From NCBI RefSeq assembly GCF_029223865.1, contig NZ_CP119520.1:6386001-6450000 (forward strand): a DNA stretch of 64,000 bases, given 5' to 3'. This DNA is from Telluria mixta (GTDB taxonomy: Bacteria > Pseudomonadota > Gammaproteobacteria > Burkholderiales > Burkholderiaceae_D). The notes under the pieces are model-generated. The model was not told the origin of the DNA. It saw only the letters and a program-made list of their open reading frames with translations, and made no database searches. Of this stretch, positions 57,440 to 63,349 are shown one piece after another. A program made the position numbers and the translations under genes. Within the stretch, counting starts at the first letter, position 1; each line of letters starts with the position of its first letter.

Positions 57440-57889
57440 TTGGATTGGGATTTCCCGCACCCGTTCACCCTGCCCCGTGTCCCGGAAGCGGCCGACATCG
57501 ACGGGCTGAACCACACCAACAATGCCGTCTATGTCCGCTGGTGCGAACAGGCCGGGTGGGCCCATTCGGAAGCGCTGGGCCTGTCGCTGGACGACTACCG
57601 GCGCCTCGACCGCGCCATGGCGATCCGGCGCGGCGAATACGATTACCTGCTGCCGACCTTTGCCGGCGAGGCGCTCGTGCTGGGCACGTGGCTCGTCGCG
57701 GGCGACGGCAAGCTGGCGATGGAACGCCGCTTCCAGCTCGTGCGCGAACGCGACGGCGCGACGGTGCTGCGCGGCCGGTGGGACCTCGTGTGCATCGAAC
57801 TGTCGAGCGGCCGGCCGCGCCGCATGCCGCAGGAATTCCTGGACGCCTACATGACGGTGGTGGTGACGGACGCGCAGCCCGCATCCTGA
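57440..57889 (+). CDS. Hot-dog fold acyl-CoA thioesterase, TTG start
   Basis: The frame starts with TTG at 57440, 6 bases after AGGAAGGA, and no ATG occurs before the conserved domain, so I accept the rare start. The 149-residue product shows the 4HBT signature DIDGLNHTNNAVYVRWCEQA then GWAHSEALG, and the beta-sheet repeat GEALVLGTWLVAGDGKLAME. It probably hydrolyses acyl-CoA or acyl-ACP thioesters; YbgC-like members act on short or aromatic acyl groups. It lies 0.5 kb from the ACP-fused adenylating enzyme, and a link is possible but unproven. Confidence 0.85.
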   Translation: MDWDFPHPFTLPRVPEAADIDGLNHTNNAVYVRWCEQAGWAHSEALGLSLDDYRRLDRAMAIRRGEYDYLLPTFAGEALVLGTWLVAGDGKLAMERRFQLVRERDGATVLRGRWDLVCIELSSGRPRRMPQEFLDAYMTVVVTDAQPAS

Positions 57890-58431: not shown

Positions 58432-59727
58432 TCATTCGGCGTCGATGATCCAGTCCGCCGGCTTGCCGCTGGCCTGGCGCGGCAGGCGTGGGCCGAACGT
58501 CCACGCGACGGGCCGCTCGGGCGCCGTCAGCCGTTCCGCTATCCAGCCGGGCAGATCCGCGCGCAGGCTGTCGACGTCGGCACCGGACCGCGGCACGACG
58601 AAGGCTTTCAGGCGCCGGCCCTCGTCGGGACGCATCAGCCGCACCGCCACCTCGCGCACCTGCGGATGCAGCGCCAGCACGTCCGCCACCCAGGCCGGGA
58701 ACACGTTCATCCCGCCGACCTGCACGGCGTCGTCGAGGCGTCCCGCGGGCACGAAATGCGTCGCGTCGGACCAGTCCAGCCGATCCTGCAACGGATAAGG
58801 TCGTGCCGTCCCGTCCGGCAGCGTGCGTGCCAGGCAGGCGGCGTCATCCGCGCGGGTCCAGTACGGCAGCAACGTGAAGGGTTGGTCTGCCCGGTCGCGC
58901 CAGCCGACACCGGCCGTTTCCGAGCTCCCGTAGACCTGCAGCAGGCGCAGGCCGGCGGCGGCCAGCGTCGCGGCGAGCGCGTCCGGGCAAGGTGCGGTCG
59001 ATGTCACGCCGACGATGTCCGCGTCGAATGCGGGCGTGACGCGCGCCGCGGCTTCCCACCAGCCAGGGTGCGCCACGATGAGGTCGCCGGGACGCGCCAG
59101 GCCGGCCAGCGCGGCCGGACCGGCCCGGCGCATATCGATCACCTCGACCGCGCCGCCGTCATGCCAACCCGCGAACCGCCTTGGCAACAGCACGGTGAAC
59201 AGGAACCCGTAGATATGGTGGCTCGGAACGGCACTCAGGACTCGCCGCCGGCCCGGCACGAGCTGCGCCAGCGCGGCGATCTCCTGCTCCAGCGTGGCGA
59301 GCGCATGCGTGCAACGCTTCGGACTGCCGCTGCTGCCCGACGTGCGGAACGTCAGCGCGAGTTCATCCGCAGCCACGCCGGCCGTGGCGCATGCGTCCAG
59401 CCCAGCCCGCGCGCTCGTGATCCAGTCGCCGATGCATGGCCGCGCCAGCAATTGCTCGTCGATACCGCCGCGCTGCAAGTGCAATGCCTCGGCCAGCGCC
59501 GTGCCGAGCCCCATCAGCTCCAGCGAATCGACGCCCAGGTCGCGCACGAACTGCGTGTCGGGCGACCAGGACGCCGGCGCTGACGGCCGGCCGGGCCGCA
59601 TCTGCGCCAGTTCGGCGGCAAGCAGGTCGGTGACGACGCGGCGCAAGGCATCGCCGTGCGTCCACCACCCGTCCGGGCTGGCGCCGCGCATGGGGCCACT
59701 TGAGGCAGAATGTGATCGTCCCGGCAT
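58432..59727 (-). CDS. ACP-fused adenylating enzyme, 4-coumarate:CoA ligase-like (candidate PYP chromophore-activating ligase)
   Basis: The start at 59727 gives 431 residues. Residues about 25-110 are an acyl-carrier domain with the phosphopantetheine site S68 in DLGVDSLELMG. The adenylation domain follows: P-loop TSGSSGSPK (129-137), YGSSETAGVGW (266-276), AGRLDDAVQVGGMNVFPAWV (A7/A8) and the C-terminal Lys K422 in ASGKPADW. It is compact, like the roughly 400-residue p-coumarate ligases of photoactive yellow protein operons. It is divergent from the PYP homologue at 59,896, which strongly suggests activation of p-coumarate for PYP, perhaps on its own carrier domain. Other ACP-linked aryl ligases, such as those of aryl polyene clusters, are the main alternative. 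Confidence 0.82.
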   Translation of the reverse strand: MPGRSHSASSGPMRGASPDGWWTHGDALRRVVTDLLAAELAQMRPGRPSAPASWSPDTQFVRDLGVDSLELMGLGTALAEALHLQRGGIDEQLLARPCIGDWITSARAGLDACATAGVAADELALTFRTSGSSGSPKRCTHALATLEQEIAALAQLVPGRRRVLSAVPSHHIYGFLFTVLLPRRFAGWHDGGAVEVIDMRRAGPAALAGLARPGDLIVAHPGWWEAAARVTPAFDADIVGVTSTAPCPDALAATLAAAGLRLLQVYGSSETAGVGWRDRADQPFTLLPYWTRADDAACLARTLPDGTARPYPLQDRLDWSDATHFVPAGRLDDAVQVGGMNVFPAWVADVLALHPQVREVAVRLMRPDEGRRLKAFVVPRSGADVDSLRADLPGWIAERLTAPERPVAWTFGPRLPRQASGKPADWIIDAE

Positions 59728-59755
59728 GATGTCTCGTCGTCGATATGGCGCGCAG

Positions 59756-59784
59756 ACTATGACGGGACGGATCGCTGCTGTCAA
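59756..59784 (-). promoter_or_regulatory. Promoter of the adenylating-enzyme gene
   Basis: On the minus strand a perfect TTGACA and CATAGT (4/6) are separated by 17 bases. The -10 is 28 bases upstream of the ATG at 59727. Confidence 0.55.
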
Positions 59785-59804
59785 ACGCGTACGGACGCGC
59801 CAAT

Positions 59805-59852
59805 GTGACATATACACACGATAGGTTTGACAGAGACATGGCGTCATGTCAC
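59805..59852. promoter_or_regulatory. Inverted repeat pair between the divergent PYP and ligase promoters
   Basis: GTGACAT (59805-59811) and ATGTCAC (59846-59852) are perfect inverted 7-mers about four helical turns apart (41 bp between centres). The second arm overlaps the +-strand promoter spacer and -10. A local TGTG-N7-CACA symmetry surrounds the first arm. This could be the operator pair for a shared regulator. Confidence 0.4.
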
Positions 59853-59855
59853 CAT
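59827..59855 (+). promoter_or_regulatory. Promoter of the PYP-cyclase operon
   Basis: A perfect TTGACA is followed after 17 bases by a poor -10 (CACCAT, 3/6), 40 bases before the PYP start. A good -35 with a weak -10 is common at activated promoters. Confidence 0.4.
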
Positions 59856-59895
59856 GCCTTTCTTTCCTGCAACACGATCTTCCGCTGGAGTTCCC

Positions 59896-60285
59896 ATGAC
59901 CGCCCCCGACCTGTCCTTCGCCGCCCCGGACTTGCATACGCGCCTCGCGCAGCTGGCAACGGACGATCTCGACCGCCTGGATTTCGGGGTCATCGGCTTC
60001 GACGACGACACCAACGTGTGCCAGTACAACCGCACGGAATCGGACGCGGCCGGCCTGACGCCGCCGCGCGTGCTGGGCCAGCCGCTGTTCACGAACGTCG
60101 CGCCCTGCCTGAACAATTTCATGGTGGCGCAGCGCTTCGAGGATGCCCAGGACGACGGCACGACGCTCGACGACACGATCGACTACGTGCTGACCCTGCG
60201 CATGCGCCCGGTGAAAGTCGCCCTGCGTCTGCTGGCCGCACCGCATACCCCCGTACGCTACGTGCTCGTCCAGCGCAAAGCATGA
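59896..60285 (+). CDS. pyp: Photoactive yellow protein (PYP) homologue
   Basis: The start at 59896 follows GGAG; the protein has 129 residues (Halorhodospira PYP has 125). The whole chain aligns by eye with PYP: LDRLDFGVIGFDDDTNVCQY, then NRTESDAAG, LGQPLFTNVAPC and LRMRPVKVALRL. The chromophore-site residues are kept: Y44 (PYP Tyr42), E48 (Glu46), C71 in VAPC (Cys69, thioester to p-coumarate) and M103 (Met100). Thr50 and Arg52 are replaced by Ala and Leu, which may shift colour or photocycle speed. It should be a cytoplasmic blue-light sensor. Its stop overlaps the diguanylate cyclase start by ATGA, and a ligase gene is divergent. Confidence 0.88.
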   Translation: MTAPDLSFAAPDLHTRLAQLATDDLDRLDFGVIGFDDDTNVCQYNRTESDAAGLTPPRVLGQPLFTNVAPCLNNFMVAQRFEDAQDDGTTLDDTIDYVLTLRMRPVKVALRLLAAPHTPVRYVLVQRKA

Positions 60286-61616
60286 CGGCAGACACCGAAA
60301 CGTACGCCCGCCTCGCCGCCGAGCACGAGGCGCTGATGCAGTTCCTGTACCTGGCCCCCGTCGGCCTCGTACAGACGGCGGCCGACGGCGAGATCCTCAT
60401 GATCAATCCGGTCTCGGCCCAGTTGCTGATGCCGCTGCAGCGCGACGGCAACCTGGTCAACCTGTTCGACGCGCTCGCCGGCGTCGCACCCGAGCTGCGC
60501 CACCTGTGCGCGATGTTCGCGCGGCCCAACGGCATGGTGTGCGACGGCCTGCACATCCAGCTCGGCGGCGGCGACGCGCGCCCGAAACGCGGACCGCAGG
60601 TGCTGTCATTGACCCTCCTAAAGCTGGACGAGGCGCGCCTGATGGCCGTGCTGTCGGACGTCACGGAACAGGTGCGGCGCGACCGCCAGCTGCGCCAGAA
60701 CGAAGCGTGGCTCGGCGCCCTCCTCACGAGCATCACGGATTACGCCCTCGTCGGCCTGGACGGCACGGGCCGCGTCAGCGCGTGGAACGAGACGATCGGC
60801 CGCGTCACCGGGCACGGCGAAGACGTCGTCGGCCAGCCGTATGCCGTGTTCTATCCGGAGGGCGCGACGACGCCCCACCACGCGGACGACCGCCTGCGCG
60901 AGGCCGACCAGAACGGCTGGAGCCTGGACGAGGGCCCGCGCGTGCGTGCGGACGGCAGCGAGTTCTGGGCCAGCGCGATGATCTCCCCGCTGCCCGACCG
61001 CGACCCGGCGCAGGCCGAGCCGGGCGAAACCGCGTACTGCCTCGTGCTGCGCGACGTCAGCGACAAGCGCGAGGCGATCGATGCGCGCCGCAAATCGCTG
61101 TTCTGCGATCACCTGACGGGCGTCGCCAACCGCCGCGCATTCTTCGAGGCGGCCGAGCTGGAACTGAACCGCAACCGGCGCGCGCCGCGTCCCACGGCCC
61201 TCGTCCTCGTCGACGCCGATCACTTCAAGCGCATCAACGACCGCCACGGCCACGCCGGCGGCGACGCCGTGCTGCGCCACCTGGGGCAGTTGCTGTCCGC
61301 GACGTTCCGGCAGGTGGATGTGGTCGCGCGCGTGGGCGGTGAGGAATTCGCCGTGCTGCTGCCGTCATCCGACCTCGATGCCGCCGTCGCCGTGGCCGAA
61401 CGCCTGCGCGGGCTCGTCGCCAGCCGTCCCGTCACGTACGACGGCGCGCAGATCGCCTGCACGATCAGCGCCGGCGTCGCCGTGTGCGACGGCGAGGCGC
61501 TCGGATTGAATGGCCTGATGAAACGCGCCGACCAGGCCCTGTATGCAGCCAAAGCCGCGGGCCGCGACCGCGTCGAACGGTGGCGTCCGGCGCTCGATGG
61601 CGAGGTGCAGCGATGA
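60282..61616 (+). CDS. PAS-PAS-GGDEF diguanylate cyclase
   Basis: The start overlaps the PYP stop (ATGA) and gives 444 residues without membrane helices. A distinctive first PAS-like domain (about 15-130: QFLYLAPVGLVQTAADGEIL, NLFDALAGVAPELRHL) is followed by a second PAS (about 140-262: DYALVGLDGTGRVSAWNETI, VTGHGEDVVGQPYAVFYPEG) and a GGDEF domain (about 270-435). The active site is GGEEF at 352-356, and the product-inhibition site RxxD is present as RQVD (343-346), so c-di-GMP synthesis is expected. Coupling to PYP suggests that light controls it, directly or through PYP binding to a PAS domain. Confidence 0.92.
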   Translation: MTADTETYARLAAEHEALMQFLYLAPVGLVQTAADGEILMINPVSAQLLMPLQRDGNLVNLFDALAGVAPELRHLCAMFARPNGMVCDGLHIQLGGGDARPKRGPQVLSLTLLKLDEARLMAVLSDVTEQVRRDRQLRQNEAWLGALLTSITDYALVGLDGTGRVSAWNETIGRVTGHGEDVVGQPYAVFYPEGATTPHHADDRLREADQNGWSLDEGPRVRADGSEFWASAMISPLPDRDPAQAEPGETAYCLVLRDVSDKREAIDARRKSLFCDHLTGVANRRAFFEAAELELNRNRRAPRPTALVLVDADHFKRINDRHGHAGGDAVLRHLGQLLSATFRQVDVVARVGGEEFAVLLPSSDLDAAVAVAERLRGLVASRPVTYDGAQIACTISAGVAVCDGEALGLNGLMKRADQALYAAKAAGRDRVERWRPALDGEVQR

Positions 61617-63349
61617 GCGACACGAACGCCTACGAGGCCCTCGTCCAGTTCCTCTACCGTGCGCCCATCGGCCTCGTCCAGGCAAGCCTGGACGGCACGG
61701 TCGACATGCTGAACCCGATGTCGTCCAGCCTCCTGATGCCGCTCGCGCGCGACGGCAGCCTCGACAACCTGTTCACGGTGCTGCAGGACGTGGCGCCGCA
61801 GCTGCGCGACTTGACGGCGGCGTTCGAGGCGCCGTCCGGCGTCGTGTGCGAAGGCCTGCGCGTGCAGCTGGGCGATGCGGCCGCGCCGGGCGCGCCGCAG
61901 GTCCTGTCGCTGAGCGTCCTGAAACTGGACGGCACGCGCCTGATGGCCACCGTGACCGACGCCACCGCGGAAGTACAGCGCGAACAGGACCGCCTGGCGC
62001 GCCGGCTGCGCAGCCAGGCGCGCACGGACGCGCTCACGCGCATGCCCAACCGGGAAGCCGTGCTGGAACAGCTGCAGCAGATGCTGGGCCGGCCGCCGCT
62101 CGCGGACGGCGGCGGTTTTGCGCTCGTATTCATGAATTGCGACCGCTTCCGCCAGGTCAACGACGCGCTGGGCCAGGCGACGGGCGACCGCCTGCTCGTG
62201 CAGATCGGCGAACGCATTCGCGCCACGTTGCGTCCGCCGAGCGACCGCATCGACACGCACGCGGGCGCGGGCCAGATGGCGGCGCGCGTCGGCGCCGACG
62301 AATTCGCCGTCGTGCTGGACGGCCTGCGCAGCCGCGCCGACGCCGAGCGCGTGGCCACGCGCCTGCTCGATGCGCTGGCGCGCCCGCATGCACTGGACGG
62401 CCAGGATGTCGTCATCCGCCTGAGCATGGGCCTCGTGTGGAGCGGCGATGCGGGCGCGGACGCCGGCGCGATGCTGCGCGACGCCAGCATCGCGATGGTC
62501 GAGGCCAAGCGCGCGGGCGGCGCCCGCTGCGTCGCGTTCGAAACCGCGATGCGCGAACGGGCCGCGCGCCGCGCCGACATCGAATCGGACCTGCGCCAGG
62601 CGCTCGTCGACGACCAGCTGTTCGTCGTCTACCAGCCCGTCGTCGGCCTGCGCGCGGACGGCGCCACCGACCATGCCGCCGGCGTCGAAGCGCTCGTGCG
62701 CTGGCGCCATCCCGTGCGCGGCGTCGTGCCGCCGATCGAATTCATCCAGGTGGCGGAGGAATCGGGGCTCATCGGCGCGCTGGGCGACTTCGTGCTGCGC
62801 CGCGCCTGCAGCGACTTCGCCGCGTGGCAGCGCGCACTGGGCGAGCGCGCACCGCGTTTGCTGGCCGTGAACCTGTCGCGCGCGCAGCTCGCGGAACCGG
62901 GCTGGCCCGCCGTCGTGCGCGACGTGCTGGCGCAGAACGGCATGCGTCCGGACCAGCTGCAGCTGGAAGTGACGGAAAGCCTGGCTGCGCAGGACCAGCA
63001 GGTGCAGCAGCGCCTGCACGAACTGAAGGCCGTCGGCGTCACCCTGGCGCTGGACGATTTCGGTACTGGGTATTCGTCGCTCTCCAGCCTGCACCAGCTG
63101 CCCGTGGACACGGTCAAGATCGACCGCTCCTTCGTGTGCCAGGCCGACACGAGCCATCACCACCGCGTGCTGATCGAGGCGACGGTGAAGGTGGCGCAGA
63201 GCCTCGGCATGAGCACGGTGGCCGAAGGCATCGAGACGGAGGCCCAGGCCGCCGCCGTGCGCGCCCAGGCCTGCGCGAAGGGACAGGGCTACCTGTTCAG
63301 CCGTCCCCTCGCCTCGCCCGACCTGATCGAGTGGCTGTCGGGACGCTGA
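61613..63349 (+). CDS. PAS-GGDEF-EAL protein, probable c-di-GMP phosphodiesterase
   Basis: The start overlaps the cyclase stop by ATGA; the protein has 578 residues and is soluble. The N-terminal PAS (about 8-125) is a paralogue of the first PAS of the upstream cyclase (QFLYRAPIGLVQASLDGTVD). The GGDEF domain is degenerate: GADEF at 227-231, no RxxD seen. The EAL domain (about 325-575) keeps EAL 359-361 in GVEALVRWRHP, N420, E452 in EVTES, DDFGTGYSSL (481-490) and KIDRSF, so it should hydrolyse c-di-GMP, possibly regulated by GTP binding at GADEF. With the upstream cyclase it makes an opposed make/break pair in one operon. Confidence 0.92.
   Translation: MSDTNAYEALVQFLYRAPIGLVQASLDGTVDMLNPMSSSLLMPLARDGSLDNLFTVLQDVAPQLRDLTAAFEAPSGVVCEGLRVQLGDAAAPGAPQVLSLSVLKLDGTRLMATVTDATAEVQREQDRLARRLRSQARTDALTRMPNREAVLEQLQQMLGRPPLADGGGFALVFMNCDRFRQVNDALGQATGDRLLVQIGERIRATLRPPSDRIDTHAGAGQMAARVGADEFAVVLDGLRSRADAERVATRLLDALARPHALDGQDVVIRLSMGLVWSGDAGADAGAMLRDASIAMVEAKRAGGARCVAFETAMRERAARRADIESDLRQALVDDQLFVVYQPVVGLRADGATDHAAGVEALVRWRHPVRGVVPPIEFIQVAEESGLIGALGDFVLRRACSDFAAWQRALGERAPRLLAVNLSRAQLAEPGWPAVVRDVLAQNGMRPDQLQLEVTESLAAQDQQVQQRLHELKAVGVTLALDDFGTGYSSLSSLHQLPVDTVKIDRSFVCQADTSHHHRVLIEATVKVAQSLGMSTVAEGIETEAQAAAVRAQACAKGQGYLFSRPLASPDLIEWLSGR

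Follow-up and report, generated by a model that had tools for sequence, protein, structure and literature searches.

A window of 64,000 nucleotides from Telluria mixta (positions 6386001-6450000 of a single 7,444,617-base contig, NZ_CP119520.1) contains a four-gene module built around a photoactive yellow protein (PYP): a divergent ligase gene, followed by three genes that each overlap the next by ATGA, namely pyp, a gene for a diguanylate cyclase and one for a GGDEF-EAL protein. We propose, with a probability of about 0.6 and from comparison of sequences and predicted structures, that this module is a self-contained blue-light switch for cyclic di-GMP (c-di-GMP). A ligase fused to its own carrier domain would load PYP, and PYP would act through PAS-N, an input domain present in both c-di-GMP enzymes.

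A first-pass annotation of the window had already described a self-contained sensor made of PYP, ligase and c-di-GMP enzymes, and both gene overlaps that it reported are present, each of them ATGA. Family matches, motifs and recurrence in 53 of 62 genomes of one genus, which form our genus sample, speak for such a sensor, although it is not new as a class. The carrier domain of the ligase and the shared input domain were both missed by that annotation.

In the proposed mechanism, the ligase would adenylate p-coumarate and load it onto a phosphopantetheine arm attached to Ser68 in the carrier domain at the N-terminus of the same enzyme; from this arm the coumaroyl group would pass by thioester exchange to Cys71 of PYP. 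This last transfer is chemically plausible because PYP takes thioesters by transthioesterification (PMC6273459). Photoactivated PYP would then act in trans on PAS-N at the head of the cyclase and of the phosphodiesterase of the same operon, and the input from PAS-N would shift the c-di-GMP balance between the two enzymes. PYP residues, ligase family, carrier fold, catalytic motifs and the linkage of PAS-N come from sequence comparison or structure prediction; phosphopantetheinylation, transfer from carrier to PYP and binding of PYP to PAS-N are what we infer. With slightly less assurance, we also favour a more general view: PYPs family-wide would be charged by a carrier-fused aryl-carrier synthetase and not by free p-coumaroyl-CoA, and clade-C PYP would signal via a portable receiver common to enzymes of opposite output.

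Results

The photoactive yellow protein

Residues Y44, E48, C71 and M103 of the protein align to Tyr42, Glu46, Cys69 and Met100 of PYP, as the first-pass annotation had stated, and their equivalents are identical in all 53 clade-C PYPs of the genus. The protein is closer to PYPs than to other PAS domains: a phmmer search of the PDB returned 33 distinct sequences at E<=0.01, all of them PYP or PYP-derived, the best being 1mzu (9.9e-17). Among the best 120 of 3477 homologues, the names given are PYP except for two (P0135 and P0194), whose public record name "phosphonate transporter" is an annotation error. The score against TIGR02373, the NCBI equivalog model of canonical PYP, is 79.2 bits and thus under the curated score of 143.05; only about 20% of PYPs fall under this model (PMC9664959). 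In clade C, Phe92, Phe96 and Trp119 are lost while Met100 is kept (PMC9664959). Because its residues fit this description, with the three aromatic positions replaced and the methionine retained, the protein is filed on sequence as a clade-C PYP and not as a TIGR02373 equivalog.

Comparison with 52 other clade-C loci and 8 canonical ones showed the same kinds of genes beside clade-C pyp in the genomes that possess it, 53 in number. A ligase ORF adjoins pyp at 42 of these loci, our own included; the counts rest on visible homologous ORFs, and broken or partial ligases (L082, split; L089, lacking a carrier match) were counted as present. Eight of the 53 genomes additionally encode a canonical PYP (27-30% identical), which is adjoined by a ligase of its own. 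Nine genomes (G402, G404, G407, G414, G416, G431, G450, G455 and G457) have a clade-C pyp with the chromophore residues and no match to a carrier-type PYP ligase in the genome.

It is quite improbable, in our opinion, that clade-C PYP is never loaded and that we see here a remnant or a PAS with a redox function instead of a light sensor. Ligase-less genomes that retain pyp, the replacement of Phe92, Phe96 and Trp119 and the absence of any characterised clade-C PYP by 2022 (PMC9664959) would suit such a reading; the complete identity of the four chromophore-related residues and the retention of the ligase at most loci contradict it.

Within the genus, the residue following the chromophore cysteine varies with the presence of the ligase. 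At PYP position 70 (window codon 60109-60111), Met is found in 11/11 ligase-less clade-C loci and Leu in 38 of the 42 with ligase, the strongest association among 2329 Fisher tests, which ignore relatedness (p 1.8e-8; next other site 8.4e-5). On a tree of EAL proteins (52 rows, L082 being excluded for its broken frame), residue 70 and ligase presence each change 7 times, and of 6 independent pairs 5 go in the same direction and 1 shows no difference (sign test p 0.0625). Outside the genus, Met occupies this position in 54 of 57 loci, ligase present or not (the motif was not found in L276, L296 and L303). Since Met prevails there with and without ligase, Met70 as a mark of ligase loss was dropped as evidence of mechanism. 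Judged from these sequences, Leu70 is probably the derived state; in the locus sets compared it was seen solely with an adjacent ligase (38/38 in the genus).

The ligase and its carrier-like N-terminus

The divergent gene, correctly recognised by the first-pass annotation as encoding a 4-coumarate-ligase-like adenylating enzyme, matches the NCBI model of PYP ligases, TIGR02372, over positions 6-384 of 386, N-terminal part included. The score, 316.6 bits, is under the cut-off of 334.7, which was exceeded in only one of the 62 genus genomes; because of the full-length match and the position beside pyp, the enzyme is filed by sequence as a relative of this family. Pfam matches comprise AMP-binding (profile positions 152-330 of 384) and AMP-binding_C.

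The N-terminal domain scanned alone matches Pfam PP-binding (PF00550) with 21.9 against a gathering score of 20.8. Its predicted model is almost all-helical and has the four-helix carrier fold, and of the 50 matches listed in the VIA structural comparison of its Foldseek matches, 45 name carriers and none an adenylate-forming enzyme. Ser68, with which helix II begins in the models, is invariant (80/80 aligned) while its neighbour Asp67 varies; proteobacterial and spirochaetal ligases alike have the serine. Two phosphopantetheinyl transferase genes are present in the genome, one of them about 9 kb from the candidate lyase described below.

The same kind of N-terminus adjoins canonical PYPs of Halomonas, Idiomarina, Rheinheimera, Pseudohongiella, Halochromatium salexigens, Azospirillum and Spirochaetes, and therefore looks like a family-wide trait of PYP ligases, not peculiar to our window. 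A ligase above the set score was found at 77 of 80 named canonical pyp loci; 73 of these ligases could be trimmed to a plausible start, 55 entered alignment A2 and 53 alignment A4.

Could the N-terminus be a shrunken N-subdomain of adenylate-forming enzymes, carrier-like in looks only? A N-S-x-E-F motif is typical of this subdomain. DSLE of the ligase resembles it, the aryl-polyene ligase of the same genome has DDSLEF there, and in the VIA alignments, which begin at residues 1-26 of the whole model, some N-terminal residues are paired with N-subdomains. The head-to-head profile and structural comparison nevertheless largely rejected this identity, which we consider most improbable: 0/54 of the N-terminal domains match Pfam AMP-binding at E<=1, the carrier-domain profile scores the two aryl-polyene carrier proteins of the genome at 14.4 and 11.1 bits and the aryl-polyene ligase at -0.5 bits, and neither the helical prediction nor the structural matches listed fit an adenylate-forming enzyme.

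A stronger competitor, doubtful though it seems to us, is an ordinary 4-coumarate:CoA ligase whose p-coumaroyl-CoA diffuses to PYP; the carrier-like domain would then be structural or serve for docking of PYP, and the serine would only cap helix II. The enzyme is named CoA ligase, and such activity has been shown for the ligase of Halorhodospira halophila (PMC12826048); CoA attachment is described, as is transthioesterification by which small thioesters label PYP (PMC6273459); and in the structural comparison of the predicted model, the AMP part is about as similar to CoA ligases as to carrier ligases. However, one would expect a merely capping serine to be replaced by T, D or N in some ligases, contrary to its invariance next to a variable Asp67; the domain also keeps the predicted carrier fold, and the serine is retained across two phyla of ligases.

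The model of the whole ligase was also considered as evidence of the thiolation state and dropped as too weak, since the Z values of the 50 matches listed span no more than 19.3 to 16.4. Its top structural matches include thioester-forming, thiolation-state or carrier-trapped entries (3cw9, 5es8, 7thq, 7thn and 6o6e); the adenylate-bound 4-coumarate ligase 5bst is among the matches too (Z 17.1), and Foldseek TM-scores mix conformations.

Our literature search found no mention of a carrier domain in PYP ligases; subscription papers were mostly beyond this search and prior notice is possible. The terms "carrier domain", "PP-binding" and "thiolation domain" have 0 occurrences in PMC12826048 and PMC9664959, and no mention of such a domain was found in passages of PMC3992019 and PMC6273459.

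Loci with several pyp genes deserve a separate remark. The clusters L143, L145, L149, L248 and L252 combine a canonical with a clade-C PYP and also contain a lyase, the cyclase and EAL genes with PAS-N, and one ligase, which suggests that a single ligase can serve two PYPs. In L304 (G566:C1:127300-143300), four pyp homologues lie on one strand around one carrier-type ligase.

The shared input domain PAS-N

The first ~130 residues of the cyclase and of the EAL protein are paralogous, with 58% identity over 122 residues. One or two copies of this domain, PAS-N, occur in 53/53 genus genomes with clade-C pyp and none in 8 of the 9 genomes without it. In 52 relatives, genome-wide PAS-N matches sum to 100, which equals the number of PAS-N ORFs inside their pyp loci. 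Of 399 genomes in the order, the 11 with a strong PYP match (E<=1e-30) are also the 11 with a strong PAS-N match (E<=1e-20). Of the remainder, three show weak PAS-N matches only (E 7e-5 to 8e-4) and three weaker PYP matches only. In 57 further clade-C loci of the family and order, PAS-N directly follows pyp in 56, the exception (L295) being a contig of 3.9 kb.

Outputs attached to PAS-N comprise GGDEF, GGDEF-EAL, EAL alone (2 ORFs) and histidine-kinase sequence in L298, L299, L300 and L302, the last type having been read from the sequence letters; in L299 alone it is backed by Pfam matches to HisKA and HATPase. As the outputs vary while PAS-N stays constant beside pyp, PAS-N is best read, on this sequence evidence, as a receiver for PYP.

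PAS-N might alternatively respond, as ordinary sensors do, to some other signal (redox, ligand) and merely be co-inherited with pyp, a reading we find unlikely, albeit one to be taken seriously. Operon inheritance yields linkage without contact, and Cys87 of PAS-N (cyclase numbering) could serve another sensing role: it is invariant in 44 aligned PAS-N proteins and was found by motif in 40/49 cyclase-type and 49/52 EAL proteins of the genus. The re-use of PAS-N with different outputs beside clade-C pyp argues against an unrelated sensor, as do its persistence after loss of the cyclase domain (L096, L100, L106, L109 and L112) and its absence from nearly all genus genomes without clade-C pyp.

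Cyclase and phosphodiesterase

The first-pass annotation gave the cyclase as PAS-PAS-GGDEF. Its GGEEF active site and inhibitory I-site RQVD are present (residues 343-356), and so is the second PAS (NCBIfam PAS model 31.4 bits, cut-off 22.9; Pfam 22.6, exactly at the threshold of 22.6); "PAS" as the label of the first domain, our PAS-N, is a guess. The protein given as PAS-GGDEF-EAL has intact EAL motifs (GVEALVR, NLSRAQL, LEVTES, DDFGTGYSSL, DTVKIDR, AEGIE). Its GGDEF is degenerate (GADEF), and its N-terminal "PAS" is again without Pfam match.

The GGEEF motif is missing in 7/49 cyclase-type ORFs of the genus, and the EAL motif occurs in the searched form in 50/52 EAL proteins. Since the EAL part is found in 53/53 clade-C loci (in L082 only in broken frames) while the cyclase is missing or truncated in several, the phosphodiesterase is, as far as these sequences tell, the more constant output.

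Source of p-coumarate

Tyrosine ammonia-lyase is indeed absent from the window, as the first-pass annotation noted; its view that p-coumarate would come from elsewhere or from plants needs partial correction, as a genome-wide search yielded a candidate. Two aromatic ammonia-lyases are encoded in the genome, both outside the window. One adjoins an ORF that is presumably urocanase, and this lyase is taken as belonging to histidine utilisation. The other (C1:4792228-4793784) clearly belongs to the aromatic-lyase family, all its NCBIfam matches being under their cut-offs, and lies about 1.65 Mb from pyp in an aryl-polyene-like cluster, where a ligase, two carrier proteins and a ketosynthase-like ORF are also encoded (carriers and ligase named by NCBIfam, the remainder by reading).

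This candidate is a likely p-coumarate source, because its orthologues, 68-74% identical, are found near pyp in Glaciimonas, Methylibium, Massilia psychrophila and Massilia sp. IC2-477 (L143, L145, L149, L186, L128). At >=81% identity it occurs in only 22/62 genus genomes, and many relatives must therefore use another source or outside p-coumarate. The ligase of the aryl-polyene-like cluster (G000:C1:4780000-4812000; L122, L123) is the best TIGR02372 match of the genome after the PYP ligase (117 bits) and is a possible evolutionary source of the latter.

Points against the switch model

Several observations weigh against the model of a carrier-loaded switch. Given the CoA-ligase activity of the H. 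halophila enzyme mentioned above, the coumaroyl group may in reality be passed to free CoA, with the carrier domain serving for docking or regulation. PP-binding is absent from the Pfam scan of the whole ligase at E<=0.001, and single-sequence matches of the domain to carriers in the PDB (phmmer) are weak. At 11 of the 53 clade-C loci there is no adjoining ligase, and 9 of those genomes are without any carrier-type ligase; as they keep pyp, PYP can persist without the ligase. PAS-N has no recognised fold (no Pfam match and no PDB match at E<=1), the ninth pyp-less genus genome (G451, 83% complete) shows two PAS-N matches and no pyp match, and the linkage could reflect operon inheritance instead of contact. 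Finally, the cyclase gene is missing in L088, L089, L102 and L103, the GGDEF domain in L096, L100, L106 and L109 (PAS-PAS only), and in L112 PAS-N alone is left of the cyclase; the cyclase is therefore not essential to the module.

Layout of the locus

Table 1. Features of the PYP module; positions are those of the window
Feature	Position	Strand	Remark
PYP-activating ligase, 431 aa, TIGR02372 type	58432..59727	-	divergent from pyp
Short adenylate-forming part (P-loop onward) and C-terminal subdomain of ligase	58435..59403	-	Pfam AMP-binding, AMP-binding_C; fold
Predicted acyl carrier (phosphopantetheine) domain, ligase N-terminus, residues ~21-108	59404..59667	-	Pfam PF00550 on domain alone; carrier fold; PDB phmmer
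Ser68 codon, predicted phosphopantetheine attachment site (GVDSLEL), helix II residue 1	59524..59526	-	invariance and models
168-bp ligase/pyp intergenic region, presumed promoters	59728..59895	.	between divergent genes
Clade-C photoactive yellow protein, 129 aa	59896..60285	+	
Cys71 codon (PYP Cys69), expected chromophore attachment	60106..60108	+	
Diguanylate cyclase, 444 aa, GGEEF and I-site RQVD	60282..61616	+	ATGA overlap with pyp
PAS-N of cyclase, residues 1-133, PYP-linked input domain, without Pfam match	60282..60680	+	
Second PAS domain of cyclase	60681..61085	+	
PAS-N-GGDEF(GADEF)-EAL protein, 578 aa, phosphodiesterase motifs intact	61613..63349	+	ATGA overlap with cyclase
PAS-N of EAL protein, paralogous to cyclase PAS-N	61613..61996	+	58% identity over 122 residues

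Flanking genes for a thioesterase (57440-57889), a 165-aa ORF and an aldo-keto reductase were rejected as parts of the module, being present at 15, 4 and 16 of 60 genus loci searched, respectively, and at 0/62 loci of the second set (L247-L304, L143, L145, L149, L168).

Discussion

PYP ranks among the leading models of protein photochemistry, and a CoA route is what has so far been described for chromophore attachment in the cell. A conserved carrier domain, if true, would change the attachment chemistry expected for the family, explain a ligase without recognisable N-subdomain and mean that the logic of aryl-polyene or non-ribosomal synthesis is used to mature a light sensor. Downstream signalling of PYP has been called an important gap (PMC12826048); PAS-N offers a small, defined candidate partner of clade-C PYP, and its GGDEF, EAL and histidine-kinase versions would form a natural kit for light-controlled outputs.

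Clade-C PYPs beside GGDEF/EAL, ligases in such operons and PYP as a mostly free protein are already known. GGDEF/EAL proteins have been reported beside clade-C PYPs, mostly in Burkholderiales (PMC9664959); 29 pyp operons with GGDEF/EAL and 42 with ligase have been counted, and 83% of Cys69-containing PYPs are single-domain proteins (PMC12826048). Our locus resembles these operons in its single-domain PYP beside GGDEF/EAL and its ligase, and differs in the shared dedicated input domain, which is not described in the passages of those papers cited here. "Massilia" does not occur in either paper, PYP together with Massilia was not found in our literature search, and searches for PYP with GGDEF and c-di-GMP, and for Idiomarina and biofilm, found no dedicated PYP receiver domain. 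The carrier-fused ligase is the more surprising part, if it works as proposed.

In Idiomarina loihiensis, PYP affects biofilm, which is reduced in blue light, through a GGDEF-type protein (as cited in PMC12826048). Its PYP belongs to clade A, however, and the Idiomarina loci compared, I. loihiensis not among them, gave no PAS-N match. The pyp-pCL-TAL operon of H. halophila (PMC12826048) combines pyp with an adjoining dedicated ligase and an ammonia-lyase supplying p-coumarate. The PYP of T. mixta, by contrast, belongs to clade C, its ligase gene is divergent and the candidate lyase is encoded far away in the aryl-polyene-like cluster.

The priming genes of aryl polyenes, for an ApeH-type ligase and separate carrier proteins ApeE/ApeF, present a parallel in chemistry: an aryl-acid adenylating enzyme acts with carrier proteins that have the same DS motif, and an ApeE entry (9ls6) is among the structural matches of our carrier domain. 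In the PYP ligase, unlike in aryl-polyene priming, the carrier is fused N-terminally, where the N-subdomain of a ligase would sit, and the acceptor would be a photoreceptor cysteine instead of a polyene chain.

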